Positions 12,852-32,491 of a DNA stretch of 33,313 nt are shown one piece after another. Source of the stretch: Oscillatoria sp. HE19RPO (lineage in GTDB: Bacteria > Cyanobacteriota > Cyanobacteriia > Cyanobacteriales > Laspinemataceae). Each line of letters opens with the position of its first letter. Within the stretch, counting starts at the first letter, position 1. Made by a program: the position numbers and the translations under genes. The notes under the pieces were generated by a model. It was given only the letters and a program-made list of their open reading frames with translations, had not been told where the DNA came from and ran no database searches. The stretch lies in NCBI RefSeq assembly GCF_024220515.1, contig NZ_JAMXOT010000198.1, positions 1-33,313 on the forward strand, in the 5' to 3' direction.

Positions 12852-13835
12852 TCAATCAATTACATAACCAAACTCATATAATTTGTGTGAACCAATATTT
12901 ATAAATATTGGTTCATTCGGTGTTCCTTGAAAGTGAATTCTATACTTTTCATTAATTCTCATTCTATAAAATGATATTTGGTTGGACAGTGTAATTTTCT
13001 TTAACTTTATTCCAGAAAAGCTTCCACTTATTAAATTGCTAATTGCTTTTTCTGCCAACTTTTTTATATGGTCTTCAAGCATAGAGAAAGATTCTTCAAA
13101 TTTTTTTGTTGTTTTCAATCCCTCAAATCTACTAAGATTTCCTGTAATTTTAGGGTCTACAGACAAAAGCAAATCTTCAGCATTATCAAGGAAGTTTGCT
13201 ATGGCTACATCTAAATTGCAGGCTAACGATGACGAAACTATAGAATCCCTATTAGTAAAACCATTCGGCTTTAAAAATTCTGCAACCTTCAATTTATTAC
13301 AAAAAAATTCTTCATTTTGAGACTCAATCATTGATATCCCGGTCAAAACACTTTCTAACAAATTTGAATCTAAATCATTGCGCATGAAATTTCGTTTTAC
13401 TAGATATTTGTATCGTGTATTAATCACTAGCAAGCATGGTAAAAATTCTTCTGCATTTTGAAAAATACTTTGGTAAAAAAGTTGTTCTAGGACTATACGT
13501 TTCTGATCAGTTAAGCCAAGTTCAAAACATTGCTGCATCAACGAGATTGACTGAGTAGAGATTTGTGAAGGACACTGCTCTCTCCATTTTGAATAAAGAT
13601 AAGCACGGAATTCTTCATTAGAAGGTAGAAAATCAAGAAAAAGTATCTTTTCCTTAGAAATAGAAGCTAAATCAGGAATACTGCTTTTTATTTTATTTAT
13701 GGAAGCGGGTGAATTTTCCATATGTTCACCATAGAAGAAAGCAATAATCCAACTAAATTCTCCTATACATCTAGAAACAATAAGGTTAGCCTCATTCTTA
13801 TCCAATTGACATAAAACTAAAGGTGAAAAACCCAT
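12852..13835 (-). CDS. Unknown protein with RelE/ParE-like C-terminus
   Basis: A 327-residue AT-rich gene unlike its neighbours in base composition and without HIP1 sites. Residues 1-~265 are helical and unrecognised. The last ~59 residues (269-327: ...GIKLKKI....FYRMRINEKYRIHF......FINIGSHKLYE) have the order and key residues of RelE/HigB-superfamily toxins (the 'yRlRvn..yRI.F' strand pair and a final IG.H..vY strand). That relation is my reading of the pattern, not a search result. The start is supported by AAGGA about 10 bp upstream. No antitoxin-sized ORF lies beside it. Flanked by an IS4 remnant and a tnpB remnant, it is probably acquired DNA. Confidence 0.7.
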   Translation of the reverse strand: MGFSPLVLCQLDKNEANLIVSRCIGEFSWIIAFFYGEHMENSPASINKIKSSIPDLASISKEKILFLDFLPSNEEFRAYLYSKWREQCPSQISTQSISLMQQCFELGLTDQKRIVLEQLFYQSIFQNAEEFLPCLLVINTRYKYLVKRNFMRNDLDSNLLESVLTGISMIESQNEEFFCNKLKVAEFLKPNGFTNRDSIVSSSLACNLDVAIANFLDNAEDLLLSVDPKITGNLSRFEGLKTTKKFEESFSMLEDHIKKLAEKAISNLISGSFSGIKLKKITLSNQISFYRMRINEKYRIHFQGTPNEPIFINIGSHKLYEFGYVID

Positions 13836-17639: not shown

Positions 17640-18473
17640 GTGAATATAGACACTATCCAAGATATTTTTGAGAAAGGCGGCGTATCCATGTGGCCGTTGT
17701 GGCCCTTGTTGATATTATCCATCCTAGCCGTCGCCACCATCTTAGAGCGCAGTTGGTTTTGGGCAACCGTCGTCAGCAAAGAAAAAGAAACCGCTAATCG
17801 CGTCCTAGAAGCGGCGCGATATGATTGGCGAGTCGCCCAGGAAGTGGCCCGACAAGCCAGCAAACGCCCGATCGGGCGCTTTCTCCATGCCCCTTTGCGC
17901 TTACAAAATGCTGACCCCGAAGTCTTTCGGTTAGCATTAGAAGCCGGGGCAGAAGAAGAAATCACCACCATGCGTCGGGGTGATAAAGTATTAGAAGCTG
18001 TCATTGCCTTAGCACCGTTACTCGGGTTACTCGGGACGGTTCTGGGGTTAATCGAATCCCTCGGGTCCATCCGCCTGGGAGACATCGGCACAGGAGCCAC
18101 CGCTGGAGTGACTACCGGCATCGGTGCAGCCCTTGTCAGTACCGCATTTGGTCTGATTGTGGCGATTACGAGTTTAGCCTTCTATCGTCTATTTCAAGGT
18201 TTGCTCGTTAACCAGGTCAAAATTTTCCGCAAATGCGGGAATGAATTGGAGTTGCTGTATCGCCAATATTGGAGCCAAATCCACCACAATCGCAGTGGTG
18301 CACCCGAAACTACCGCCTCTTGGGCAACTAGAACGGTGCCAGACAGTGGGTTTACGGTTAAGCCCGAAGGGTCTGTGAATCATAGTAAAGGCTACCCAGA
18401 AATAGGGGATCAGCCCCAGGATAGAGCCAACAAGATTGATGGTTTGAATTCCTCGGATCAGTCGTCGAATTAA
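17640..18473 (+). CDS. exbB: MotA/TolQ/ExbB proton channel protein
   Basis: A 277-residue inner-membrane protein with an N-terminal helix ([19 protein letters not shown]), a cytoplasmic loop and two C-terminal helices. The hallmark [12 protein letters not shown] (~123-134) and [18 protein letters not shown] follow. With ExbD it forms the proton-motive-force-driven stator that energises TonB-dependent outer-membrane uptake, or a Tol-like machine. The GTG start at 17640 fits the family N-terminus; ATG 17688 is possible. The ~60-residue C-terminal tail is hydrophilic and unconserved. It is followed after 71 bp by exbD. No tonB or receptor gene is in the window. Confidence 0.9.
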
Positions 18474-18544
18474 GTTCAATGAAGCGGGGGGAGTTCCTAC
18501 CGCTTGCCACTCACCCCTTTGAATTTCTGGGAGGCGATCGCCGG

Positions 18545-19081
18545 ATGAAGATTAACGGGTATGATTCACAAACGGAAGAAGCTCGGATTGAGCTGATTCC
18601 CCTGATTGATGTCATCTTTTGTATTTTGACCTTTTTCCTCCTAGCGGCATTGCAACTGACCCGCCAACAAGCGGTGAATGTAGATTTGCCCCAAGCGGAG
18701 ACAGGGACAGTACAGATGCAAGAGTTGAAACTGTTTGTCAGCGTGGACCAACTGGGACAAACGTATGTGGATAAACAGCCGGTGACCCGGGAGCAACTGT
18801 ATCAGTTATTGTTGACTTATAAAAGAGCCAGACCCGAGGGATTGATTGTGCTTTCGGCGTCGAAGATGGCCAGTTATAATGACGTGATGCAGGTGCTGGA
18901 TTTGCTGAGGTCTGTGGGAGGCGATCGGGTTGCCCTAGCCACGATCCCCACTTCCGGTGACCTATTGCTACCTGGTGGCGATCGGCCCAATAATGGTTCA
19001 GCAGTGCCAAATCCAATTGTTCCTGAAACAGGAGGAGAAAATGCGCCAGGGATGGGCGGCACCGGAGAAGGGAATGAATGA
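18545..19081 (+). CDS. exbD: ExbD/TolR-family protein
   Basis: A 178-residue partner of the ExbB-like channel. It has a short cytoplasmic start, one helix (ELIPLIDVIFCILTFFLLAA) containing the proton-carrying aspartate in LIDVIF, and a periplasmic domain (VNVDLPQAE ... VLDLLRSVGGDRVALAT). The Gly/Pro/Asn-rich tail of ~40 residues is longer than in the Escherichia coli protein. The ATG at 18545 is chosen because GGGAGG precedes it and MKIN.. is the family-like start; an ATG at 18479 has no ribosome-binding site. Confidence 0.9.
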   Translation: MKINGYDSQTEEARIELIPLIDVIFCILTFFLLAALQLTRQQAVNVDLPQAETGTVQMQELKLFVSVDQLGQTYVDKQPVTREQLYQLLLTYKRARPEGLIVLSASKMASYNDVMQVLDLLRSVGGDRVALATIPTSGDLLLPGGDRPNNGSAVPNPIVPETGGENAPGMGGTGEGNE

Positions 19082-19311: not shown

Positions 19312-20634
19312 ATGGATAATAAAAACTTAGAAATCCTCGAAAAAATCCGTCAACAATTTGAAAAAGGTCCTTATCCTAGAAGAAGCATAGAAGACACTCC
19401 TAAAGACAACTACAATTTTTTATTTAAACATAATTTGGCAACCCCTTTTTATTTAAGAAATCAAAAATTCATAAATAGCGAAGGGAAGTTTATTTTAGAT
19501 GCTGGATGTGGTAGCGGATATAAATCATTAGCTCTTGCCGAAGCAAATCCCGGCGCTAAAATTATAGGAATCGATATTTCAGAAGAATCTGTAAAGCTTG
19601 CACGTCAACGCCTAGAATATTACGGGTTTGAAGCAGATTTTTATGTTTTGCCGATAGAAGAAGTGGCAAGCTTGGGCATGACATTTGATTATATTAATAA
19701 TGATGATGTTTTGTATCTTTTACCTAATCCAGTCCTCGGACTGGAGGCGATGAAGTCAGTGTTAAAGCCCGAAGGAATTATCAGAACTAACTTTCATAGT
19801 TCCCTACAGAGATATTTCTGGTATCGGGCACAGGAAATTTTTAAAATCATGGGATTGATGGATGAGAATCCAGGAGAGATGGAAATTTCTGTAGTACGCG
19901 ATACCATGAAGGCACTCAAAGATGGAGTTCTTCTGAAAACTAAAACCTGGCAACAGGAGCATGAAGACAATGAAGAGTGGTACATGATGAATTATTTATT
20001 TCAGGGAGATAAGGGTTACACAATTCCTGAGATGTTCGCCGCATTGAAAGCAGCCAAATTAGAATTTATTAGCATGGTAGATTGGCGACGGTGGGAGTTA
20101 ATGGAATTGTTTGAGGAACCAGAGAATTTACCGATCTTCCTGGGAATGAGCTTGCCCGAACTCTCTGTAGAAGAACGGATGCATATACTGGAGTTGTTGC
20201 ACCCAGTGAATCGGCTGCTCGACTTCTGGTGTGGTCCTCCTGAACAAGATATTTCATTTCTTCCGGTTTCCGAATGGACAGACTCGGACTGGCAGGGTGC
20301 TTCAGTTCGTCTGCATCCTCAACTTAGAAACCCAAAAGCTAGAACGGATTTGCTTGAGTGCATCACCCACCAAAAATCCTTTGAAATCAGTCGGTATGTT
20401 CATGCTCCCACCTTGGCCCCAATCTTTATTGAGAGTAGTATAGCCGCTTGCCTGTTGCCGCTTTGGCAGGATACCCAATCGGTCAAATCTTTGGTAGAAC
20501 GCTTCCTGACTATCAGACCCGTACATCCAGCCACCCTCGAACGCGAGACCTCAACAACGGCGTTTGAGACAATGACTAAGCTTTTAACCTACCTAGAAAC
20601 TTTTCTGTATGTGCTTTTGGAGAGATCCACCTAA
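19312..20634 (+). CDS. Class I SAM-dependent methyltransferase, pilin-adjacent
   Basis: A 440-residue protein. Motif I (LDAGCGSGYKSL, D63-G69 loop) and motif II (IIGIDISEESV) make the N-terminal ~200 residues a Rossmann methyltransferase domain. The remaining ~240 residues resemble no catalytic domain I know; they include WRRWELMELFEEPENLP and could be a substrate-recognition part. It stands 107 bp upstream of the pilin gene in the same direction. The target is unknown; a surface glycan or the pilin are candidates by location only. Confidence 0.85.
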   Translation: MDNKNLEILEKIRQQFEKGPYPRRSIEDTPKDNYNFLFKHNLATPFYLRNQKFINSEGKFILDAGCGSGYKSLALAEANPGAKIIGIDISEESVKLARQRLEYYGFEADFYVLPIEEVASLGMTFDYINNDDVLYLLPNPVLGLEAMKSVLKPEGIIRTNFHSSLQRYFWYRAQEIFKIMGLMDENPGEMEISVVRDTMKALKDGVLLKTKTWQQEHEDNEEWYMMNYLFQGDKGYTIPEMFAALKAAKLEFISMVDWRRWELMELFEEPENLPIFLGMSLPELSVEERMHILELLHPVNRLLDFWCGPPEQDISFLPVSEWTDSDWQGASVRLHPQLRNPKARTDLLECITHQKSFEISRYVHAPTLAPIFIESSIAACLLPLWQDTQSVKSLVERFLTIRPVHPATLERETSTTAFETMTKLLTYLETFLYVLLERST

Positions 20635-20741
20635 ACTCAAAAAAATTTTTACGCCCGGTGATATGAAACTGAACAAAGGTGGGTAAGTTATCTCCAGGAG
20701 TTAGAAAGCAAGCATCCCACACCCCAAGGAGACATATTCTT

Positions 20742-21278
20742 ATGAAGACCGAATTTAAAGCCAAATTCCTCCAACATATCAATCAAAAAAATCGAGAAGA
20801 GGGTTTCACCTTAATCGAACTGCTCGTCGTGGTCATTATCATCGGTATTTTGGCTGCTGTCGCATTACCCTCACTGTTAAGCCAGACTAACAAAGCCAAA
20901 CAGGTTGAAGCTCGTAACAATATTGGTGCTATGAACCGGGCGCAGCAAGCAGTATTTTTGGAGCGTAATGGCTTTGCCACAGATATGGCAAATCTAGGCG
21001 TGGGTATTCAAACCCAAACAACAAATTACGAGTATTCGATGGTGGCTGCAGGTGGTACTTTACCAAGTAGCGTTAACAACCAAGCGAAAACTCGTGTTAA
21101 CAGCCTCAAACCTTACGCCGGACTCGTCTGGTCTGTCACCGATCCAACTACCTCTCAAGCTACGACGCGCGCCATTCTTTGTGAGGAAGCCGATCCCAAG
21201 CCACCTAACACAGCCCCGACTGTGGCTGCAGCACCTGGTGTTGGTGCAACCTGCGGTGCTATGAAGACTCTTGAATAG
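20742..21278 (+). CDS. Type IV pilin-like protein (G/H family)
   Basis: A 178-residue prepilin with a 21-residue leader ending in Gly21, then FTLIELLVVVIIIGILAAVA with the essential Glu at mature position 5 (E26), so it is a PilD substrate and a pilus subunit or minor pilin. The mature part has the cyanobacterial G/H-type pattern (MNRAQQAVFLERNGFA, LGVGIQTQTTNYEY, LKPYAGLVWSV). Two cysteines near the end (C147, C171) can close a D-loop spanning a Pro/Thr/Ala-rich segment (PPNTAPTVAAAP), a plausible O-glycosylation site. AAGGAGA 9 bp upstream fixes the ATG at 20742. It is followed by its own hairpin terminator and two GT41 enzymes. Confidence 0.93.
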   Translation: MKTEFKAKFLQHINQKNREEGFTLIELLVVVIIIGILAAVALPSLLSQTNKAKQVEARNNIGAMNRAQQAVFLERNGFATDMANLGVGIQTQTTNYEYSMVAAGGTLPSSVNNQAKTRVNSLKPYAGLVWSVTDPTTSQATTRAILCEEADPKPPNTAPTVAAAPGVGATCGAMKTLE

Positions 21279-21609
21279 TTAGGATATTAAAGAACTGCTA
21301 AGAACACTCAACTAACTCAAGAGCAATTAGAGAGGGGAGTTTACACTACCCTCTCTCATTTTCTTAAACTAGCTATCACCAACCCAACTACTTAATACAC
21401 CTATCCAGAGGGCCAAACCGACAATATAAACCATCCCTCAAACTATTGAAAAAATCGAGAACGGGCCGCTATAGTTAATAGAATTCATCCCTATTATATC
21501 CATACCATTTATTCAATTCATTTAACCTAGCTCTAAATAAACGAAGACCACCGATATTTACCTTTTGAGAAAAATATAGTTCCTGCACCTAAATTGATTC
21601 ATTGATTCT
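21279..21609. other. Intergenic region between pilin and GT41 gene
   Basis: 331 bp. It contains the pilin terminator at 21329-21356, then an AT-rich stretch without a gene. The start of the next gene has no strong ribosome-binding site (sequence ATTGATTCATTGATTCT just upstream). Confidence 0.5.
21329..21356 (+). terminator. Pilin gene terminator
   Basis: AGAGAGGG (21329-21336) pairs perfectly with CCCTCTCT (21349-21356) and is followed by CATTTTCTT. It would let an abundant pilin mRNA end before the glycosyltransferase genes. Confidence 0.75.
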
Positions 21610-23850
21610 ATGACCTTTGATAGTGTTTTAAGTCAGTTCAGTAATTGGCACGAGCAGGCCTATCAATATCTCCTTAAGGGTGAGTATAGCAAAGCTGCAA
21701 GTCTTTATGAACAAGCTATAGAAATAGAACCCGATGTAAAGTTGCACTATTGGTATCTGGGATTAATGGTCCTATTACAGGGCCAAGAGGCAGAAGCTCA
21801 AACAACGTGGCTTCTAGGAATGCTGGAGGGCGACCCAGAAGAATTGGAGCAGTGGACACAAGAACTGATAGAAGTTCTGAAAAAAGAAGCCGATCGGCAG
21901 AAAGCATTAGGAGAATATTCACCGGCTTGGCTGATACTAGGGCATATCCGCGAGATTCAGCCTACAAATCTGAATAACCTACTCGATCTGATTCAACTGG
22001 CAATCCAACTCGAAAAATTTAGTCCAGAAGAAATGATTGAATGGAGCATCATTGAACTGCTTCATAATCAGCAACCCGGGAGCATTGATGCCGAGCGGCT
22101 AATGCCAATTTTAAAGAAGGTTTTAGAATTGGCCCCATTACAGCGATCATCCTTAGAGTTTGCAGCACTGTGTATGCCCCACGTCCACCCCCATCCTGAT
22201 TTTTTCAGGGTTATATTGCACGCTGTTGCAGACATAGGGTACTCCCTGGGAAACCTATCAATGGCTTCATCGCTCATGGAGTTGTGCCTACGGATAGATG
22301 ACAGTAATCCAGAAATCCTGCGACATTTAGCTGCTTTTTATCAAGATTCTGGATACTATTCTTTGGGAATTGAAATCGCTCGGTGGTGTTATTCGATTGT
22401 TGAAAAGCTACCGCATAAAATTTTTGCCAATCACTTGCTACTTCGAGGATTGATGTGCGCTGGGGGGTACTGGGACGAAGCCTGTGAGCTATTAAAGCGA
22501 CACGAATTACTAATATCAAACCTAGTAAAGGAACCTCCCACAGAGATAGACCAACCTACAGTAGCACGTTTGATAACTTCCAGCTTCTTTTTACCTTATT
22601 TTCAGGACGTACCCCAACAAACCCGCTTGATGCAAAATCAACTCATGGGTCTTTGCCAGTCTTATCTTCAAAGTTATGACCCTGAAGCAGTAAAACGCTA
22701 TAAACAAAGACATCTTAATCGTAAAAAAACTGGCTTGGGGGCGGAATCCGCACCTTTGAAAATTGGCTATGTCTCCCATTGTCTGAAAAGTCATTCGGTA
22801 GGTTGGTTAGCGCGATGGTTGTTCCAACATCACGATCGCGATAGGTTTGAAATTTATATTTATTTTGTGAGCTATCGTTACACCGGAGAACCTTTACAAG
22901 ACTGGTATGAAAGTCAAGTATTTAAGGCTCATAAATTTGGAGGAGATAATATAGAAATAGCCGAACAAATTTCTCAAGATGAAATTGATATCTTAGTTGA
23001 TTTAGATAGTATTACTCTCGATGTCAGTTCTGAAGTTATGGCCCTAAAACCCGCGCCAGTTCAAGTAACTTGGCTGGGGTGGGATGCTTCCGGTTTACCA
23101 GCCATTGATTACTTTCTGGCGGATCCCTATGTGTTGCCAGAAGAGGCTCAGGATTACTACTCTGAAAAAATATGGCGCTTACCCGACACTTATATAGCAG
23201 TGGATGGGTTTGAGGTAGGTGTACCGACTCTTCGTCGGGATCAGTTAGAGATTCCCAATAATGCAGTCGTATATTTCAGTGGACAGCGAGGATTTAAGCG
23301 CCATTTGAATACAGCGCGACTACAAATGAAAATCATTAAAAATGTCCCTAATAGCTTCTTTTTGATTAAGGGTTTTGCCGATAAAGAATCTATCAAAAGC
23401 TTCTTTACTAAGCTTGCCGAAGAAGAAGGAGTGGATCCTAATCGGCTGCGCTTTTTGCCTCCAGCTGCCACAGAATCAACTCACAGAGCTAACCTTGGTA
23501 TCGCAGATGTGGTACTAGATACATTCCCCTATAATGGTGCTACAACTACTCTGGAAACCTTGTGGATGGGTATCCCTTTAGTTACAAGAGTTGGACAGCA
23601 ATTTGCGGCTCGCAATAGTTATACGATGATGATGAATGTGGGTGTAACAGAGGGAATTGCCTGGAGCGATGACGAATATGTGGAATGGGGAATTCGCATA
23701 GGGGAAGATTCTGCATTGCGGAAAGAAATATCCTGGCGACTGCTGCGCTCTCGCCACAATGCACCACTCTGGAATGGTAAAAAGTTTGCTCGGGAAATAG
23801 AAAATGCTTACCAACAAATGTGGCTTAAGTATCTTGAAACAACGCCTTAG
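21610..23850 (+). CDS. TPR-GT41 glycosyltransferase (SPINDLY/OGT-like), copy 1
   Basis: A 746-residue protein whose N-terminal ~370 residues are TPR-like helices (first repeat AYQYLLKGEYSKAASLYEQA at 17-36). The rest is a GT41 catalytic domain related to O-GlcNAc transferase. It keeps KIGYVS...SHSVGW with H395 (human OGT H498 position), VQVTWLG.DASGLPAIDYF, GQRGFK with K563 (OGT K842 position), and DTFPYNGATTT (637-647) for UDP binding. The alanine in GATTT stands where animal OGT has His. GT41 enzymes glycosylate Ser/Thr or Asn of proteins. Location after the pilin suggests that pilin is the acceptor (inference). It is clearly paralogous to the next gene. Confidence 0.9.
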   Translation: MTFDSVLSQFSNWHEQAYQYLLKGEYSKAASLYEQAIEIEPDVKLHYWYLGLMVLLQGQEAEAQTTWLLGMLEGDPEELEQWTQELIEVLKKEADRQKALGEYSPAWLILGHIREIQPTNLNNLLDLIQLAIQLEKFSPEEMIEWSIIELLHNQQPGSIDAERLMPILKKVLELAPLQRSSLEFAALCMPHVHPHPDFFRVILHAVADIGYSLGNLSMASSLMELCLRIDDSNPEILRHLAAFYQDSGYYSLGIEIARWCYSIVEKLPHKIFANHLLLRGLMCAGGYWDEACELLKRHELLISNLVKEPPTEIDQPTVARLITSSFFLPYFQDVPQQTRLMQNQLMGLCQSYLQSYDPEAVKRYKQRHLNRKKTGLGAESAPLKIGYVSHCLKSHSVGWLARWLFQHHDRDRFEIYIYFVSYRYTGEPLQDWYESQVFKAHKFGGDNIEIAEQISQDEIDILVDLDSITLDVSSEVMALKPAPVQVTWLGWDASGLPAIDYFLADPYVLPEEAQDYYSEKIWRLPDTYIAVDGFEVGVPTLRRDQLEIPNNAVVYFSGQRGFKRHLNTARLQMKIIKNVPNSFFLIKGFADKESIKSFFTKLAEEEGVDPNRLRFLPPAATESTHRANLGIADVVLDTFPYNGATTTLETLWMGIPLVTRVGQQFAARNSYTMMMNVGVTEGIAWSDDEYVEWGIRIGEDSALRKEISWRLLRSRHNAPLWNGKKFAREIENAYQQMWLKYLETTP

Positions 23851-23941
23851 ATAGAGATAATTTTAAGTTTGTATAAAAACTAAAATTATTTTTTATACAA
23901 AAATAGTAATTGTTTTATTATAAATAATAGGAGTTGATAGG

Positions 23942-26152
23942 GTGATTTTTGAAAACCAGAGTAACATTTTAGAGCCAAAAGCTTATGAACTTTGGATGGA
24001 AGGTGACTACGAAAGATCTGCACAACTTTATGAACAAGTAATTGTTGAGGAACCGTCACAAATCTCCTCTTACTGGCATTTGGGATTAATGAGGTTACTT
24101 CAGGGTAAGAAAGTAACTGCTAAAATCACCTGGGATGCAGTCAGATCAAAACTAGAGAGAGAGGAGAATCGAGCCGATACAGGAGATTTGATTGACATTT
24201 TACAAACAGAAGCTATCCGACAAGCATCTCTTGAAAATTATACTAATGTTTACTCGATTTTGGACTGCGTAATTGAGCTGTTCCCAGACCAGTTAGATGA
24301 GGTTTTAAATCATACAATTTTCTCTTCTAATTTCCCCCAAAATGATTATGCTCTGCTCCATCCTATGTTGATAAAACTGTTGGATTATAAGAAGAATCAA
24401 GGAAGCTCTAATTTCTTGACTTTTTTAGAAAAATTTTTAGATTTTTTTCCGCATTCAACACATACAATAGACTGGTTAGAAAAATTAACATTTGAAAACA
24501 TAGATATTTTAAGCTTTAAAAAACTACTTTTAACCAAACTTGATCGGTTCATCAAGAATCAAGTGGTATCGACAGATATCATTATAAAATATGCCGAGTT
24601 ATCCTTAAAACTGGAACCTCATAACTTGTCAGTCCTGATTAATTTAGCTGAGGCATATCAAAGGATAGGCTTATTTAAGCAAAGTATAGAAGTTTGTAAT
24701 CAAGTATCCATAAAATCTTCTACATCTCTTGAACACCAGATTAGCGCCAGCTATCTAACAATGAAATCTCTGCTAAATCAGGGAGGAGCCTGGCAAAACT
24801 CCTATGAAACTTCCCTAGATTATCAGAGGTTAATGCGTGATTTGATGGATAAAGATCCCCCCTTACCATTAGATTTTCTTCTAGGTTTGATGGGAACACT
24901 TAGTTTCCCCCCCTATTTCACTGACACTCCTCAAAATACCCATGAATTTCGGAGTCAGTTTGCTCAGTTTTATCAAACAAAAGTTCAAGCTGCGCTTGCT
25001 GAGGGAGTAAAACAGGATAGGTATAAATCGTCTTATCTCGGATCTCGTGGTAACTCTCTAAGAATTGGCTACCTCTCAAGCTGTTTTTGTAGACACTCCG
25101 TTGGCTGGATAGCGCGTTGGCTATTTGCCTATCATAACCCCGAAAAGTTCCAGATTTATGCTTACTCGTTACGCTATCAAAATGATGATTTACAATCATA
25201 CATTGCTGAAAGAGTTTTTAAATTTCATGATGTATCTCGGCTCAGTCCTATTGAAATTGCAAAATCAATTTCTGACGATAAAATTGATATATTAGTTGAT
25301 TTAGATAGCCTAACGCATCATTTAATTGCTCCAGTTTTAGCTTTAAAGCCTGCACCCATTCAAGTGACATGGTTGGGTTCAGATGCCTCGGATTTGCCAG
25401 CCGTCGATTATTTTTTAGCAGATCCTTATGTTCTCCCTGAATCGGCTCAAAACTATTATGTAGCAAAGATCTGGCGGATTCCACAGGTTTACCTTGCGGT
25501 GGATGGATTTGAAGTGGGCATTCCCACCTTGCGTCGCGATCAATTAGGGATTCCAGATGATGCCGTCGTCTATTTTAGCGGACAAACGGGGTATAAACGC
25601 AATCCTAATAATGTAAAATTACAGTTACAAATTATTAAACAAGTCCCCAAGAGTTATTTTTTGGTTAAAAGTAGTGGAGACCAAGAGTCAGTGAAAGGCT
25701 TTTTTAAGCAGATGGCGAACGAACTCGGATTAGAAGACGATCGGTTACGATTTTTGCCCGAGGTTGCCTCAGAGGAAATTCACCGTGCTAACCTCAGTAT
25801 CGCGGATATAGTTTTGGATACTTATCCTTACAATGGTGCAACTACTACATTAGAAACATTGTGGATGAGAATTCCTTTGGTGACGAGAGTTGGAGAGCAA
25901 TTTGCCTCGCGTAATAGCTATACGATGATGATGAATGTAGGTGTCAACGAAGGAATTGCTTGGACGGATGAGGAATATGTAAACTGGGGAATTCGTTTGG
26001 GTAAAGATGCACCACTCCGTAAAGAAATATCCTGGCGTATGTTGCACTCTCGCCAAATATCTTCTCTCTGGAATGCTGAAGAATTCACCCGAAATATGGA
26101 GAGAACCTACCAAAAAATGTGGTCCAATTATATGAACCTAATATCAAACTAA
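23942..26152 (+). CDS. TPR-GT41 glycosyltransferase (SPINDLY/OGT-like), copy 2
   Basis: A 736-residue paralogue of the preceding gene. The catalytic halves are alike almost throughout (e.g. DGFEVG.PTLRRDQL.IP, RNSYTMMMNVGV), while the TPR halves have diverged strongly. It keeps H385, GYK with K552 and DTYPYNGATTT (626-636). One difference stands out: LWMRIPLVTR where copy 1 and most relatives have LWMG. GTG start with AGGAG 8 bp upstream; the gap to copy 1 is 91 bp, so the two are probably co-transcribed. Composition is AT-rich and there is no HIP1. Divergent TPRs with a similar catalytic part suggest different protein acceptors with the same sugar donor. Confidence 0.9.
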   Translation: MIFENQSNILEPKAYELWMEGDYERSAQLYEQVIVEEPSQISSYWHLGLMRLLQGKKVTAKITWDAVRSKLEREENRADTGDLIDILQTEAIRQASLENYTNVYSILDCVIELFPDQLDEVLNHTIFSSNFPQNDYALLHPMLIKLLDYKKNQGSSNFLTFLEKFLDFFPHSTHTIDWLEKLTFENIDILSFKKLLLTKLDRFIKNQVVSTDIIIKYAELSLKLEPHNLSVLINLAEAYQRIGLFKQSIEVCNQVSIKSSTSLEHQISASYLTMKSLLNQGGAWQNSYETSLDYQRLMRDLMDKDPPLPLDFLLGLMGTLSFPPYFTDTPQNTHEFRSQFAQFYQTKVQAALAEGVKQDRYKSSYLGSRGNSLRIGYLSSCFCRHSVGWIARWLFAYHNPEKFQIYAYSLRYQNDDLQSYIAERVFKFHDVSRLSPIEIAKSISDDKIDILVDLDSLTHHLIAPVLALKPAPIQVTWLGSDASDLPAVDYFLADPYVLPESAQNYYVAKIWRIPQVYLAVDGFEVGIPTLRRDQLGIPDDAVVYFSGQTGYKRNPNNVKLQLQIIKQVPKSYFLVKSSGDQESVKGFFKQMANELGLEDDRLRFLPEVASEEIHRANLSIADIVLDTYPYNGATTTLETLWMRIPLVTRVGEQFASRNSYTMMMNVGVNEGIAWTDEEYVNWGIRLGKDAPLRKEISWRMLHSRQISSLWNAEEFTRNMERTYQKMWSNYMNLISN

Positions 26153-26253
26153 AGGGGGCTAACCAAAGGGGTTTATTTAAAAAATGCCCGAGTATAGAAT
26201 TATTTTAAATTCAAAATAGTGCTGGCTGGGTTAATTTTGTAAATGCCTCAAAA

Positions 26254-27222
26254 TTAAGTGATAATATAACTTTGGATTTGTTGAATTACTGAAAGCGATT
26301 CTAATCCATTTTTCACTAATTCTGGAAATTGAGATAGCCCTTCTACGATCTGCTTCGCACAATTGTATTTAGGATTACTTCCATGTTTCAAAGTCAGATA
26401 TTGGAGCAATTCCAGGGCATAATCTGTACAATCCATCAAGTCAGCGATGCAAGCTAGTTTAAGAAGATGGTACGGCGTTTTTAAATCTGTAGGGCTATTG
26501 CCTAAAAGATCTCGCATATAAAAAGCATCTCCCCATAGTAATTGTCCACCATAATGAGATACAATAGGGGAACATTGGCGAGGACGGTATGCAGTATTTA
26601 AAGTAAATAAGCTAAAGCCTTTGTGTCTCATGAAACTATCTACATCAGCGAATAAGGGACATTTTTCATATAAAGGTGCAAATAACACTTCAGATTTAAC
26701 GGCTAAAATGCTTTTACCCAAAAGATAAGAACACCCTTGCAATACATCTAAGTCCGCTCCCTGAACATCAGTTTGTAAAAAGTCAATTTTCTCAATTTCT
26801 TCGGACTGACAGAAAAAATCTAAAGTGGTAGTTTCTATTTCAACTGTAAAATCTAACTTCATGAGCTCAGGAATCATCCCTCCCAACCTTTCTAAATAGG
26901 GTTCATTAGGTTGGTATAAAGAACTGCACATGGGGTGTTTTGTAACATAAAGTGTAGATTCTCCTGCAGAATTTCCCAGTGCAAGCGGGATATGGATTTC
27001 ATTCCAATTTGCTTCTTTTTTTTCTAGATCAGCATTAGCTGAATCACAGGCATCAGCGTCAGCATCAAATCCATAGATAGTCAACTTAGGTGCAAAGATA
27101 TCCCACCCTTGATTACCCCAGTCATCTTGCTCTCCTAATTTACGAGAACCCACCTGACAGAGGGTTAAATCAATTTGGTCTAGGTGTCCACTTTTCTTCA
27201 AGCTATCAATAAAAACGGGCAT
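26254..27222 (-). CDS. FkbM-family methyltransferase
   Basis: A 322-residue SAM methyltransferase of the FkbM family, which O-methylates sugars or polyketides. An acidic SAM-binding segment (YGFDADADAC, 50-59) and the signature KIDFLQTDVQGADLDVLQGC (145-164) are present, though the usual Gly-rich motif I is replaced by CQVGSRKLGEQ. A ~80-residue helical C-terminal extension (from ~240) follows the catalytic core. It is transcribed toward the GT41 pair. Methylation of the glycan that the neighbouring transferases add is a reasonable guess. Confidence 0.85.
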   Translation of the reverse strand: MPVFIDSLKKSGHLDQIDLTLCQVGSRKLGEQDDWGNQGWDIFAPKLTIYGFDADADACDSANADLEKKEANWNEIHIPLALGNSAGESTLYVTKHPMCSSLYQPNEPYLERLGGMIPELMKLDFTVEIETTTLDFFCQSEEIEKIDFLQTDVQGADLDVLQGCSYLLGKSILAVKSEVLFAPLYEKCPLFADVDSFMRHKGFSLFTLNTAYRPRQCSPIVSHYGGQLLWGDAFYMRDLLGNSPTDLKTPYHLLKLACIADLMDCTDYALELLQYLTLKHGSNPKYNCAKQIVEGLSQFPELVKNGLESLSVIQQIQSYIIT

Positions 27223-27423
27223 ATAATATCCTTGATTGATTATAGAGTTAAGTAATGATTAGGGAGGGCTAGATTGTCTCAAATTTTAAGTTGGAAATTT
27301 ACTCAACACAAACCGAATTCCTCACGATATAACGCCACTTTACCAAGACTTACGCATAAACCCCATATACTTGTTCGGTTCATTTTAAAATCAACCCTAC
27401 TGCGTTGATCAAAGGGTTTTTAT

Positions 27424-27455
27424 ACCCTAGTCAGTCTTTACAGACTTGCTAGGGT
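27424..27455. other. Two-part RNA-like hairpin
   Basis: ACCCTAG (27424-27430) pairs with CTAGGGT (27449-27455). Inside, AGTCT (27433-27437) pairs with AGACT (27442-27446) around TTAC, with a symmetrical 2x2 internal loop. There is no T tract on either side, so it is not an ordinary terminator. Confidence 0.5.
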
Positions 27456-27721
27456 CTGGAAATTTAGTTTCCGAAGCTATACTGTAGCACAGGTAAATTA
27501 TTTCCTCTAGGATTCAGTCACCGTTAGCATGGAGATTTAAATGATATGCTCAGATTAACATATTGAACGGACGCCTTACCTCTGTAAAAAAGTTACAATT
27601 TGTTAAGCATTTAACCCATTTCCCCTTGATTTGGTCGGAAGTTCAGAAAACAAAACTTAAGAAAGCCTTCCCTGCTCAGCAGTTTAGCCCAAAGCATTTT
27701 TCTACAATCCAGACTGATTGA

Positions 27722-27739
27722 ATCATGCTCAAGCATGAT
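27722..27739. other. 8-bp perfect hairpin ATCATGCT/AGCATGAT
   Basis: Perfect arms at 27722-27729 and 27732-27739 around a CA loop, followed by ATTATAAG. It could be an operator or a weak terminator. Confidence 0.4.
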
Positions 27740-28039
27740 ATTATAAGTCTGATCGTCATTTTATGGTTCTGGGTCAAACACTTGCCGTGCGCTCATTGTT
27801 TTTAGGGGTTCGGAGAATACCGAAGCACTATCTATAGCGTTTTCACTTTCGCGCTGAGAATAAACCAGTAACTCTGGCATGAAATACACATCAAGTGACT
27901 TTCGTCAACATTTGTTTAGGAAGTCTGTAACCCTCATTCACTCGTAGGCCATCTCAAAAACTCAATTAAAAATGAGCTAACCGTAAGAACCATATCTTGG
28001 CGATCAAAGTTTACAATTGTAAGGGCGTTAAAATCAACT

Positions 28040-28567
28040 ATGAATCAAGTCAAGCTCCATATCGGGGGTACGGAAATCAAACCAGATTGGAAAATTGTAG
28101 ATATTGAAGATCGACCTGAAGTAGACTTTATCAGTGATGCTTCTAATCTGAGTCAGTTTGAAAGTGATTCGGTGGATGTAATTTATGCTAGTCATGTTTT
28201 AGAACATTTTCATCATAGCTTAAATAATGAATTAATTGATACATTAAAGGAATGGCATAGAGTTCTTAAACCCGGTGGGAAACTATTGTTAAGTGTTCCC
28301 GATTTAAAAGCCCTATGTTGGCTGTATCTTCATCCTAATATGACGCCCATTGAACGTCTTCATTTGATGAGAATTTTATACGGAGGACAAATCAATCAAT
28401 ATGATGTACACAAAGTCGGCTTTGATGCTGAAACTTTAGCTTTTTATTTGGAGGAAGTAGGCTTTAAGGATTATGAACCCGTTTCGGAGTTTAATTTATT
28501 TAATGACTGTAGTAGCTTAAGGATTTTAGATACCTTAATTAGCTTGAATGTCATTGCTACTAAATAA
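28040..28567 (+). CDS. Small SAM-dependent methyltransferase-like protein
   Basis: A 175-residue methyltransferase-11-type fold. It begins KLHIGGTEIKPDWKIVDIEDRP, a form common in methyltransferases of glycan clusters. DVIYASHVLEHF (motif IV region) and LKEWHRVLKPGGKLLLSVPD follow. The family is short, and motif I is reduced to the LHIGG loop, so activity is likely but not certain. It is 38 bp upstream of the GT2-TPR gene and probably co-transcribed with it. I see no strong Shine-Dalgarno. Confidence 0.82.
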   Translation: MNQVKLHIGGTEIKPDWKIVDIEDRPEVDFISDASNLSQFESDSVDVIYASHVLEHFHHSLNNELIDTLKEWHRVLKPGGKLLLSVPDLKALCWLYLHPNMTPIERLHLMRILYGGQINQYDVHKVGFDAETLAFYLEEVGFKDYEPVSEFNLFNDCSSLRILDTLISLNVIATK

Positions 28568-28605
28568 AACACCATTGAATTTTAATTGTTGATTGTATTG
28601 ATTAT

Positions 28606-29751
28606 ATGAACAAACCATTTCTTTCATTTTGCGCTATTGTCAAAAATGAAAAAAATAATCTTACCCGATGTCTACAGAGCGTCAAACCTTATGTAGATGA
28701 AATGATTGTTGTAGACACGGGTTCGCAGGATGGAACGCCGGAAATTGCCCGTCAGCAGAGTGCTCAAGTTTTTTACTTTGAGTGGTGCGATGATTTTGCA
28801 GCCGCTCGAAACTATGCGGTATCTCAAGCCTCGGGTGAATGGATTTTGAGTTTAGATGCTGATGAAGAGTTAGTTGTCAATTCTGAAAACTTTAGAGAAG
28901 CCCTTGTTGCTAATTCAGAGGTTTTAGCCTATTCGATGATATTAATAGATGTTGGGTCAGAAACAAAGGAAGTAGGTGGGAAATTTCAGAGATTATTTAG
29001 AAATCACCAAGATATCAAATATGAAGGTCGCTTACATGAACGTTTAATGTATTGTGGAGAAAAAATTGCCGGTCGTTTTCGAGGAGATTTAGATAGTCTC
29101 AAAATTTTACATTACGGTTACAGCAATCCGGAATTTACACAACAAAAAGCCCGAGAGCGGAATATTCCTATCTTAGAACGGATGCGCGAGGAGGAGGGGC
29201 TAAGTTTGTCCAATCTCTACTGTTTGGCAAGTATGTGTCAGGATGTAGGACAAAGCGAAAAAGCGCAAGAGTATTATGATGAACTCTTCGAGGGTCTTGT
29301 TCACTATGTGCTTGATGGAGAAGCCCCTACGGAATTTTTGTGGGTTCCGACTATGCTTTATTTCTTTGGATCTCAAGCTTTGAAACAGGAAGACTATGAA
29401 ACGGTAAGGATGTTGTGCCAACGAGGACTAGACTGGTGTCCTAATTTTCCTCCTTTGAATGCACTGGCTGGGGATCTACTCATAGCGTTAGGATTTACCG
29501 TGGGAGCGGTTCCTTATTTTCAAAAGTGTCTGCAACTAGGTCAAGAAGGAAATTACTACACACGCGATCCATTTGATGTTAGTTTTCTCAATACTTATCC
29601 CGCTTATCGGCTGGGCTGTGCATACCAAAATTTGCAACGCTGGCAGGAAGCAAAAACAGCTTGTGAAATGGCCCTCTCTTTTGATGAAAATTATAATCCC
29701 GCTCAACAACTACTAGAGCAAATTTTACAATTTTTGCCGGATAAAAAATAG
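28606..29751 (+). CDS. GT2 glycosyltransferase with TPR tail
   Basis: A 381-residue protein. The N-terminal ~220 residues form a GT-A (family 2) domain opening with LSFCAIVKNEKNNLTRCLQS, with VVDTGSQDGTPEIA and the metal-binding DAD at 84-86 (LSLDADEEL). The rest is TPR-like (KAQEYYDELFEG; AVPYFQKCLQLGQ; AKTACEMALSFDENY). This layout is found in cyanobacterial WaaE-like transferases near TPR-GT41 genes. It may add or extend sugars on the same acceptor as the GT41 enzymes. The stop is 11 bp before the pabC-like start. Confidence 0.9.
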   Translation: MNKPFLSFCAIVKNEKNNLTRCLQSVKPYVDEMIVVDTGSQDGTPEIARQQSAQVFYFEWCDDFAAARNYAVSQASGEWILSLDADEELVVNSENFREALVANSEVLAYSMILIDVGSETKEVGGKFQRLFRNHQDIKYEGRLHERLMYCGEKIAGRFRGDLDSLKILHYGYSNPEFTQQKARERNIPILERMREEEGLSLSNLYCLASMCQDVGQSEKAQEYYDELFEGLVHYVLDGEAPTEFLWVPTMLYFFGSQALKQEDYETVRMLCQRGLDWCPNFPPLNALAGDLLIALGFTVGAVPYFQKCLQLGQEGNYYTRDPFDVSFLNTYPAYRLGCAYQNLQRWQEAKTACEMALSFDENYNPAQQLLEQILQFLPDKK

Positions 29752-29762
29752 TTAAAGCCCCA

Positions 29763-30572
29763 ATGTTCTACAACGGCTCTCTGCACGACTCTAGCACCCT
29801 CGAACTCTCAATTACTGACCCTGCTCTCCTGTATGGGGCCACTGTTTTCACCACTCTACGGGTTTATGAGCAGTCCTTGGATTCTCCCCTGACTGCATGG
29901 CAGGCGCATTGTCGGCGGTTGAAATCCTCCCTGGAACCCTTTCAGTGGGCTGAACCGGATTGGGTGCGGGTGCGGGAGGGGGCGGAGTTGATGATGGCTG
30001 GGTGGCCAGTGTTACGGATTTCGATTTTCCCGGATGGGAGAGAATTAATTATAGGGCGTATTTTACCATCGGAGTTGGCGATTCGTCAAGAAGTTGGGGT
30101 GAAGGCTTGGGTGGCGGCGGATTCTTTGTTTATGAGATCGCTCCCGACCCATAAAACCGGCAACTATCTCTCCGCTTGGTTGGCGCTGCAAGCGGCTCAA
30201 CGGCAGGGTTGTCAGGAAGCTATTCTAATAGATGGTCAAGGGAATTGGTTGGAAACCAGTACCGGAAATCTGTGGGGATGGCGGGAGGGGCGGTGGTGGA
30301 CTCCGCCTATTGAGGTAGGGATTTTACCCGGGGTGATGCGATCGCAACTTCTGAACTGCCTCAACCATCAAGGTCATCCTGCCATCCTCGAACCCTGGAC
30401 AGCCGACGTGGTGAGCGGGTTTGAAGCCTTGGCCTATAGTAATAGTGTGGTAGAAGTCATTCCTTTATGTGAAGTTTTCTCAGAAACCCAAACGATTGCT
30501 TATCCTTACTCCCATCAAGGGTTCAGCCAATTGCGGCAGCTTTTCCTTGACCACTCGCCCCGCAAATTCTGA
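29763..30572 (+). CDS. pabC: Class IV aminotransferase, 4-amino-4-deoxychorismate lyase-like
   Basis: A fold-type IV PLP enzyme of 269 residues. It opens with MFYNG, then ITDPALLYGATVFTTLRV. The PLP lysine is K131 in THKTGNYLSAW, and E164 with the cofactor-phosphate loop is in NWLETSTGNLW; a late GVMRS motif follows. The size and motifs suit PabC, which releases 4-aminobenzoate for folate. Branched-chain or D-amino-acid aminotransferases share the fold, so the activity is probable rather than certain. HIP1 and GC-rich codon use return in this gene, marking the end of the island. Confidence 0.82.
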   Translation: MFYNGSLHDSSTLELSITDPALLYGATVFTTLRVYEQSLDSPLTAWQAHCRRLKSSLEPFQWAEPDWVRVREGAELMMAGWPVLRISIFPDGRELIIGRILPSELAIRQEVGVKAWVAADSLFMRSLPTHKTGNYLSAWLALQAAQRQGCQEAILIDGQGNWLETSTGNLWGWREGRWWTPPIEVGILPGVMRSQLLNCLNHQGHPAILEPWTADVVSGFEALAYSNSVVEVIPLCEVFSETQTIAYPYSHQGFSQLRQLFLDHSPRKF

Positions 30573-30652
30573 TAATACGTTAACATTAGTTAACAACAGT
30601 AGAATAAAAATAGCCCAAACACCCCCCCATTCCAGAACTAGGAGGACCGCTG

Positions 30653-32491
30653 GTGAATAAAAAATGGAGAAACGCCGGACTATACGCAATGCTGGCGATC
30701 GTTGTTATCTTTGTAGCAACGACATTTTTTGAAAATCAAACATCAAACGAGGAAACCTGGCGCTACAGTCAGTTTATCCAGGAAGTTCAAAACAACCGCA
30801 TTGATAAGGTAGTCATTACCTCCGATCGCTCCCGAGCTAGAGTCACCGCTCAGGATGGCAAAAAGGTTGTCGTCAATTTACCCAATGACCCGGAACTCCT
30901 CAACATCCTCACTGACCACCGAGTCAATATTGAAGTCTCCCCTCAAGGCGATGAAGGCTTCTGGTTCAAGGCACTCAGTAGCTTATTCTTCCCTGTTCTC
31001 CTCTTAGTGGGCTTAGTCTTCTTGCTTCGTCGTGCTCAAAATGGCCCAGGTTCTCAAGCGATGAACTTTGGCAAATCCAAAGCACGGGTGCAAATGGAAC
31101 CTCAAACCCAAGTCACCTTCGGGGATGTCGCCGGTATTGAGCAAGCCAAGCTAGAACTGAGCGAAGTAGTAGACTTCCTGAAAAACGCCGATCGCTTTAC
31201 CGCTGTTGGTGCCAAGATTCCCAAAGGTGTTTTATTAGTCGGCCCTCCGGGAACCGGCAAGACCCTCCTGGCCAAAGCAGTGGCGGGCGAAGCGGGCGTC
31301 CCCTTCTTCTCCATCTCGGGCTCAGAATTCGTGGAAATGTTTGTGGGAGTCGGTGCCTCTCGCGTCCGCGATTTATTTGAACAAGCCAAATCCAACGCTC
31401 CCTGTATCGTCTTTATCGATGAAATTGACGCCGTAGGTCGTCAACGCGGTGCCGGTTTAGGCGGTGGTAACGATGAACGGGAACAAACCCTCAACCAACT
31501 CCTGACCGAAATGGATGGGTTTGAAGGCAACACCGGCATCATTATTATTGCCGCCACCAACCGTCCCGATGTCCTCGATGCCGCTTTATTGCGTCCCGGT
31601 CGTTTCGATCGCCAAGTGGTGGTCGATCGCCCTGACTATGCCGGTCGTCGGGAAATCCTCAATGTCCATGCGCGCGGTAAGACCCTGGCGAAGGATGTGG
31701 ACCTCGACAAAATCGCCCGTCGGACCCCTGGTTTCACGGGTGCTGACCTCTCCAACCTGCTCAACGAAGCCGCAATTCTGGCGGCAAGACGCAATTTGAC
31801 CGAAATTTCGATGGATGAAATCAATGATGCCATCGATCGCGTCCTTGCCGGACCGGAGAAAAAAGACCGGGTGATGAGCGAAAAACGCAAAACTCTGGTT
31901 GCCTATCATGAAGCGGGTCATGCTTTAGTCGGTGCCTTAATGCCCGATTATGACCCGGTGCAAAAAATCAGCATTATTCCTCGGGGACGTGCCGGTGGGT
32001 TAACCTGGTTTACCCCCAGTGAAGAACGCATGGATTCCGGTCTGTACAGCCGGTCCTATCTGCAAAATCAGATGGCAGTGGCCCTTGGCGGTCGGATTGC
32101 GGAAGAAATTGTCTTCGGTGAGGAAGAAGTCACCACCGGTGCTTCCAATGACTTGCAACAGGTGGCACGAGTCGCACGGCAGATGGTCACTCGCTTTGGA
32201 ATGAGCGATCGCCTGGGTCCAGTGGCCCTCGGTCGTCAGCAAGGCAATATGTTCCTCGGTCGCGATATCATGGCAGAGCGTGACTTCTCCGAAGAAACCG
32301 CCGCAGCGATTGATGATGAAGTTCGCAATCTGGTGGAACAAGCCTACGGACGCGCTAAAGAGGTGCTCGTTTCCAACCGGGAGGTTTTGGATGAACTGTC
32401 TCAACTCCTGATTGAGAAAGAAACCGTTGATGCCGATGAATTGCAAGAGTTGTTAGCGAACAGCGATGTGAAGATGGCGGCGATCGCCTAA
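30653..32491 (+). CDS. ftsH: ATP-dependent zinc metalloprotease FtsH (FtsH3-like)
   Basis: A membrane-bound AAA+ protease that degrades misfolded or damaged membrane proteins, including photosystem subunits in cyanobacteria. The 612-residue protein has TM1 (~8-25), a lumenal/periplasmic FtsH_ext domain, TM2 (~105-124), Walker A GPPGTGKT (197-204), Walker B with D256-E257 in [13 protein letters not shown], the SRH in [10 protein letters not shown], and the zinc site HEAGH (419-423). The opening [17 protein letters not shown] is like the cyanobacterial FtsH3 subgroup, judged by eye. GTG start with AGGAGG upstream, closed by a strong terminator at 32561-32608. Confidence 0.96.

Follow-up and report, generated by a model that had tools for sequence, protein, structure and literature searches.

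The window analyzed here, 33,313 nt of contig NZ_JAMXOT010000198.1 from Oscillatoria sp. HE19RPO (forward strand; the source assembly is a draft, 7.67 Mb split over 511 contigs), carries at 19312..29751 a group of genes that probably constitutes a pilin-modification locus. The type IV prepilin encoded there would be glycosylated by proteins of glycosyltransferase family 41 (GT41), with a GDP-sugar as the more likely donor, and methylated on lysine by MT1, a class I S-adenosylmethionine (SAM) methyltransferase, with accessory enzymes tailoring the glycan. Gene order, conservation, predicted folds, and donor-site residues were observed directly, and from these we infer the acceptor, the sugar, the lysine target, and the accessory roles. 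That ogt lies beside pilA and that Ogt takes part in PilA glycosylation is already known, as stated in two reports (PMC12288463, PMC12647202). What is new is a proposed correction of the donor for the pilA-linked Ogt enzymes and a candidate pilin lysine methyltransferase. All seven genes that a preliminary description had placed in this interval were recovered by profile matches, with their domains, at the coordinates given below.

The pilin-GT41 pair is conserved

The core of the locus is formed by MT1, the prepilin, and the first of two GT41 genes. The prepilin (20742..21278, plus strand) is a PilA-like member of the G/H family (Pilin_GH 8.2e-29, N_methyl 5.6e-9) and the sole Pilin_GH match in its own genome; the ATG at 20742, which has AAGGAG ahead of it, is a more likely start than the GTG at 20679. 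It lies directly 5' of GT41a (21610..23850, plus strand; Glyco_transf_41 7.1e-50), an ogtA-clade GT41, at a distance of 331 bases, and GT41b follows (23942..26152, plus strand; Glyco_transf_41 1.1e-51). Both GT41 proteins belong to the family and have a tetratricopeptide repeat (TPR) N-terminus, with 170 and 176 bits against a Glyco_transf_41 cut-off of 25 and weak TPR matches in each.

A profile search found Pilin_GH in 60 of 146 genomes sampled across the phylum. The window GT41 pair was then used as a query against these 60 and eight further genomes of the order or class without Pilin_GH, and matches at 1e-60 were obtained in 50 of the 68. The GT41 neighborhoods were annotated with profiles built from family sequences. 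A GT41 above 450 bits, taken as ogtA-clade, was present in 44 genomes, and in 32 of them a pilin lay directly upstream (same strand, <3 kb). The same order was seen in 77 of 80 named loci, which are the best 80 of 168 and are thus biased towards close relatives, and in 13/13 family loci. The latter comprise the window and 12 relatives from a set of 14 genomes, in which G151 (87% complete) gave no match; some genomes are common to the family and named sets. Random placement would be expected to put a pilin directly upstream of an ogtA-clade GT41 in ∼0.1% of genomes, a crude estimate that assumes 1.5 GT41 genes and 2.6 pilins in 5.3 Mb, and the sample genomes are non-independent and were selected largely on the presence of Pilin_GH.

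The direct order is absent in 12 of the 44 genomes (G014, G067, G071, G076, G078, G086, G088, G122, G134, G136, G140, and G142). In two of them (G078 and G140) the GT41 lies <500 bases from a contig end, as it does within 600 bases in two of the three named loci that lack the order. Four others (G014, G067, G122, and G142) have a pilin at most 8 kb from the GT41 in another arrangement, and some of the remainder have no pilin near the GT41. Even so, ogtA-clade GT41 genes are not routinely found away from pilin genes, and the pairing is real, widespread, and beyond chance.

It appears very improbable that regulatory or cytoplasmic proteins are the main targets of the GT41 proteins, which would then control the level of pilin rather than its structure. 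An effect on PilA accumulation has reportedly been seen, but the GT41 genes directly adjoin pilin genes, and Ogt of Synechococcus elongatus is stated to glycosylate PilA (PMC12647202). A 2025 review describes ogt beside pilA in many cyanobacteria and its participation in PilA glycosylation (PMC12288463). The earlier proposal of pilin glycosylation by the adjacent GT41 proteins thus gains from the conserved order and from published work on other cyanobacteria, with PilA as the presumed acceptor in this organism, as others have stated for those species. The accompanying description of a Pro/Thr-rich Cys loop holds for one of the two residues: across 104 loops, Pro made up 8.5% against 2.1% in the preceding stretch, but Thr was hardly enriched (15.2% against 13.5%). 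These loops came from pilins of at least 150 bits that match the prepilin pattern and have a GT41 of >800 bits within 3 kb.

A terminator-like hairpin follows pilA (21329..21356, plus strand; z −2.9 for the folded 111-base stretch 21275-21385), so much of the pilA transcript may end before the GT41 genes; the hairpin is absent from the sites of the consensus scan.

Donor residues of the pilin-linked GT41 proteins

Use of GDP-fucose by Arabidopsis SPINDLY (SPY; K689, A731, and Y744) has been separated from use of UDP-GlcNAc by human OGT (L866, R904, and C917), which is also marked by an insertion domain between its catalytic halves (as described in PMC10027727). The corresponding positions were examined in 159 distinct ogtA-clade catalytic domains of >500 bits, aligned with SPY and OGT segments; matches of ≤500 bits, identical sequences, and loci after L203 were excluded. 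Two SPINDLY residues, the Lys that binds guanine and the Tyr that binds fucose, are present together in 149/159, and the human OGT trio L/R/C occurs in none (0/159). The residue triple is K/N/Y in 147 sequences, GT41a and GT41b among them; 2 others have K/D/Y, and 10 combine F with Q, S, or N. Further SPY contacts are kept at K665 (159), E752 as Glu (150), H728 (148), S496 (146), and V497 (154), and the HSV motif is mostly retained (H in 152, S in 146, and V in 154 of 159). The OGT insertion domain is missing, as the alignment jumps over residues 739-858 of 7ntf (∼120), with only 6 query positions between. In a profile search of the PDB, GT41a matched SPY best, ∼80-fold ahead of the best OGT by E-value, and Foldseek also ranked SPY first for the GT41a model. 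Together, these residues suggest that a GDP-sugar such as GDP-fucose is a more likely donor than UDP-GlcNAc.

The position of A731 is Asn in 156/159 sequences, which matches neither SPY nor OGT; what is claimed is therefore that these enzymes work like SPY, not that they are members of the SPY group. A second structural aligner tied SPY with bacterial OGT homologues for the GT41a model, and overall fold was set aside as non-discriminating between SPY and OGT.

As a control, the same positions were read in 56 other cyanobacterial GT41 proteins, a set in which L245 is an ogtA-type fragment whose read-through contains a stop and L094 barely aligned. Lys occupied the 689 position in 14, each of which also has Tyr at 744, whereas 38 had L, I, P, or V at 689 and 32 had W at 744. 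The Lys/Tyr pair is therefore neither the default of the phylum nor exclusive to the pilin-linked clade. One control protein (L241:2281-5031, in G136) has the complete human OGT trio L/R/C plus Asp and apparently an OGT-type pocket; an OGT-like pocket thus exists within the phylum, and the difference of the ogtA clade is not phylum-wide.

Both the gene name ogt and the preliminary description suppose that these GT41 proteins are genuine O-GlcNAc transferases and that GlcNAc is what they attach to pilin. The family match, which is common to OGT and SPY, and the match of the GT41a model to bacterial OGT homologues as well as to SPY would agree with this. Given that no member has the OGT trio, that 149 have the guanine-contacting Lys, and that a cyanobacterial GT41 with the trio exists elsewhere, O-GlcNAc now seems an unlikely pilin sugar.

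A comparably low probability attaches to another GDP-sugar (GDP-mannose, GDP-rhamnose, or another GDP-deoxyhexose) in place of GDP-fucose. The guanine-binding Lys is kept, but Asn for Ala731 and Ala at the T747 position (155/159) indicate some departure from the SPY sugar pocket, and the N662 position is variable. The product of gmd also feeds other GDP-deoxyhexoses. Retention of the fucose-contacting Tyr and of most of the HSV motif argues instead for fucose. In the Oscillatoria genome, gmd (542 bits, cut-off 415) adjoins a GDP-L-fucose-synthase-like gene (296 bits, below the cut-off of 500). The presence of gmd was uninformative as a donor test, as 66 of 68 genomes have it.

As a side observation, the gmd genes of this genome (L248:2869-4923) and of two others (L249 in G107 and L250 in G084) contain an in-frame insert of ∼340-370 residues with intein-like ends, located after about profile position 188.

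Repeated multiplication of GT41 genes beside pilin

GT41a and GT41b are 46% identical and belong to different sub-clades. In a tree made by a quick method, in which 18 of 66 inner branches are open, they are not sisters: GT41a groups with the first copy of G147 (support 99) and GT41b with the second (92), inside a clade (99) that also holds the second copies of G146, G156, and G158. Other tandem pairs (G157; G148/G152; Arthrospira/Trichodesmium; Pseudanabaena) are placed elsewhere. A single ancestral duplication behind all tandem pairs is not borne out by this tree, and the separate positions indicate that GT41 multiplication beside pilin happened repeatedly. Thus the pilin-GT41-GT41 order first described is present in the window, but two GT41 genes are not the rule, with at least two copies in 9/13 family loci and 8/80 named loci. 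A phage search with GT41b gave no match.

The ten sequences without the Lys/Tyr pair all come from four loci (L175, L176, L183, and L186) in two families with multiple tandem copies, and the copies at these loci may differ in donor. Two of the loci (L183 in G110 and L186 in G047) have four tandem ogtA-clade GT41 genes each, of which three have Phe at the Tyr744 position and Ser, Gln, or Asn at the Lys689 position, suggesting that the copies use different donors.

MT1 is a candidate pilin lysine methyltransferase

MT1 (19312..20634, plus strand; Methyltransf_31) lies directly upstream of the prepilin. Its model resembles protein-lysine methyltransferases rather than sugar methylases, with a fold match over nearly the whole length, C-terminal part included. 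Rv2067c and Rickettsia PKMT1/PKMT2 are its first, third, and fourth PDB profile matches, at ∼11-16% identity over aligned residues. MT1 occurs at most 5 kb upstream of the pilin in 12 of the 32 sample genomes with the pilin-GT41 order, in 44 of 80 named loci, and in 13/13 family loci, counts that include some loci ending early upstream. Pilin_GH positions were taken from MT1-carrying genomes only, and among the matches listed 22 of 36 such genomes have MT1 within 5 kb of a Pilin_GH gene. In seven genomes (G002, G031, G039, G057, G082, G084, and G126) MT1 adjoins a pilin without an ogtA-clade GT41. From the modeled fold and this linkage, a pilin lysine is the most likely target of MT1.

Somewhat short of an even chance is given to MT1 methylating a glycan, a lipid, or another protein, with its position beside pilA serving only co-regulation. 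Among the matches listed, MT1 lies away from pilin in 14 of 36 genomes, and a prepilin motif was found within 4 kb in 1 of 14 MT1 loci; these loci represent 12 of the 14 pilin-distant genomes and the second MT1 copies of G008 and G057, and two (L207 and L213) are cut by contig ends near MT1. Furthermore, no pilin lysine tracks the presence of MT1. The full-length fold match to protein-lysine methyltransferases, and a pilin link that holds in the seven genomes without an ogtA-clade GT41, speak for the pilin lysine as target. A C-terminal lysine was rejected as the target in the window pilin, which ends in MKTLE, and gained no support elsewhere (39/61 against 29/46), among pilins selected by the same limits as the loops.

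A plasmid search with MT1 returned 57 records, all below 60% identity and with query coverage always under 80%. At L065, L093, L095, L103, L162, L198, and L200, the pilin is preceded by MT1 in two or three tandem copies; judged by length, L065 and L198 represent one contig. At L217:5360-6475 (G033), two near-identical 144-residue pilins that were missed by the Pilin_GH search are flanked by a GT47-TPR protein, a GT2-GT1-domain fusion, and, on the other strand, MT1.

Accessory, variable, and flanking genes

Downstream of the GT41 genes, an accessory FkbM-family methyltransferase (26254..27222; Methyltransf_21 3.8e-16) is encoded on the minus strand, convergent with them. Within the family, 9 of 14 genomes have one FkbM match each (E 1e-40), 9/9 at the pilin locus and in two pieces in G157. 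The more variable part consists of a small methyltransferase (28040..28567, plus strand; Methyltransf_11 4.8e-11) and a GT2-TPR glycosyltransferase (28606..29751, plus strand; Glycos_transf_2 2e-18). Because FkbM is on the minus strand and an 817-base gap without an open reading frame of at least 80 aa separates it from position 28040, these two appear to form their own unit. The small methyltransferase is found in 4/14 family genomes (4/4 at the pilin locus), and a close GT2 homologue (>500 bits) in 3/14 (3/3 within ∼9 kb of the pilin-GT41-FkbM genes). Although both are present in the window, they are thus rare extras to the island first outlined.

The far side of the locus was compared in five relatives (G147, G148, G149, G154, and G156). 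In four of them (G147, G148, G154, and G156), FkbM is joined by same-strand genes, namely a second FkbM (4/4), GT4 domains (3/4), TylF (2/4), and a GXM-type methyltransferase (1/4); in G149, only the small methyltransferase lies between the GT41 genes and the flank. The interval is closed by an aminotransferase in 4/5 relatives, together with ftsH in 3. The GT41-to-aminotransferase-ftsH interval is short in the window (26254-28040) and holds several large glycosyltransferase and methyltransferase genes in some relatives (compared at L254, L256, L257, and L258), suggesting gene gain or loss. Such an arrangement is what would be expected of an exchangeable gene set that makes an O-methylated glycan. 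For the methylated pilin glycan proposed at the outset, the evidence is divided: family genomes have FkbM at no other locus and some relatives add GT4, TylF, FkbM, and GXM-type enzymes, but MT1 is like a protein-lysine methyltransferase.

Outside the modification set, a class IV aminotransferase and FtsH (29763..32491, plus strand) form the far flank, as in several relatives. Upstream lie an ExbB/MotA-type proton channel subunit (17640..18473, plus strand; MotA_ExbB 6.6e-31) and an ExbD/TolR-type subunit (18479..19081, plus strand; ExbD 1.8e-28), and ExbB and/or ExbD precede MT1 in 11/12 loci of family relatives. Further away, a 327-residue protein (12852-13835, minus strand) has no Pfam match at 0.001; its C-terminus may resemble RelE/ParE-type toxins.

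Proposed mechanism and implications

In the proposed mechanism, the soluble TPR-GT41 enzymes would glycosylate Ser/Thr residues of the prepilin in the cytoplasm, before or during membrane insertion, with the TPR part presumably holding the pilin and a GDP-sugar such as GDP-fucose, more likely than UDP-GlcNAc, as donor. MT1 would most likely methylate a pilin lysine, and FkbM would extend or O-methylate the glycan, in the window perhaps along with the small methyltransferase and GT2. More tentatively, and with the odds somewhat against it, the pilA-linked cyanobacterial Ogt proteins may be SPINDLY-type protein O-fucosyltransferases (or close GDP-deoxyhexose relatives) that add the first sugar to the major pilin in the cytoplasm, with an Rv2067c-type enzyme, encoded immediately upstream, methylating the same pilin and, in Laspinema-like genomes, the exchangeable cassette from the GT41 genes to the aminotransferase-ftsH flank setting a strain-specific O-methylated glycan.

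If the donor is GDP-fucose, the cyanobacterial pilus enzymes called Ogt are misnamed and would provide a genetically tractable model for O-fucosylation of an extracellular bacterial fiber. GDP-fucose as donor would also explain directly why low fucose goes with poor motility in Deg mutants of Synechocystis, according to PMC7076178 a reported association. MT1, if the assignment is correct, is a candidate enzyme for the lysine trimethylation reported in cyanobacterial pilin. The literature searched, outside of which most subscription articles lay, showed no test of the donor of pilA-linked Ogt enzymes, of GT41 fucosyltransferases with pilins in cyanobacteria, of pilin lysine methyltransferases, or of the function of MT1 or of sll1693 (discussed below).

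Comparison with known systems

The closest described arrangement is the pilA-ogt pair of cyanobacteria such as Nostoc punctiforme (OgtA) and Synechococcus elongatus (Ogt), in which ogt likewise lies beside the major pilin gene and Ogt takes part in PilA glycosylation (as stated in PMC12288463 and PMC12647202). Unlike that pair, the window has two tandem GT41 genes of different sub-clades, MT1 upstream, and FkbM and variable tailoring genes downstream, and its donor residues point away from UDP-GlcNAc. Arabidopsis SPINDLY, a nucleocytoplasmic protein O-fucosyltransferase of GT41, has the same TPR and GT41 parts without the OGT insertion domain, and shares with the window proteins the guanine-binding Lys, the fucose-binding Tyr, the ribose-binding Glu, and the HSV motif (roles as described in PMC10027727). 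The window proteins differ from it in Asn for Ala731, Ala for Thr747, their bacterial origin, and a probable acceptor that is an exported pilin.

MT1 can be likened, by position and annotation only, to Synechocystis sll1693, which is annotated as a methyltransferase (PMC6508509), heads the pilA1 operon (PMC4144903), and is described as potentially involved in PilA1 and PilA2 methylation (PMC12313861). With Rv2067c and Rickettsia PKMT1/PKMT2 it shares a fold over nearly its whole length, at low identity and with different substrates. Finally, Caulobacter FlmG is, like the GT41 proteins proposed here, a soluble glycosyltransferase that binds its substrate through a TPR domain and acts in the cytoplasm on a subunit of an appendage, although its acceptor is flagellin and its sugar pseudaminic acid (as described in PMC7591256).

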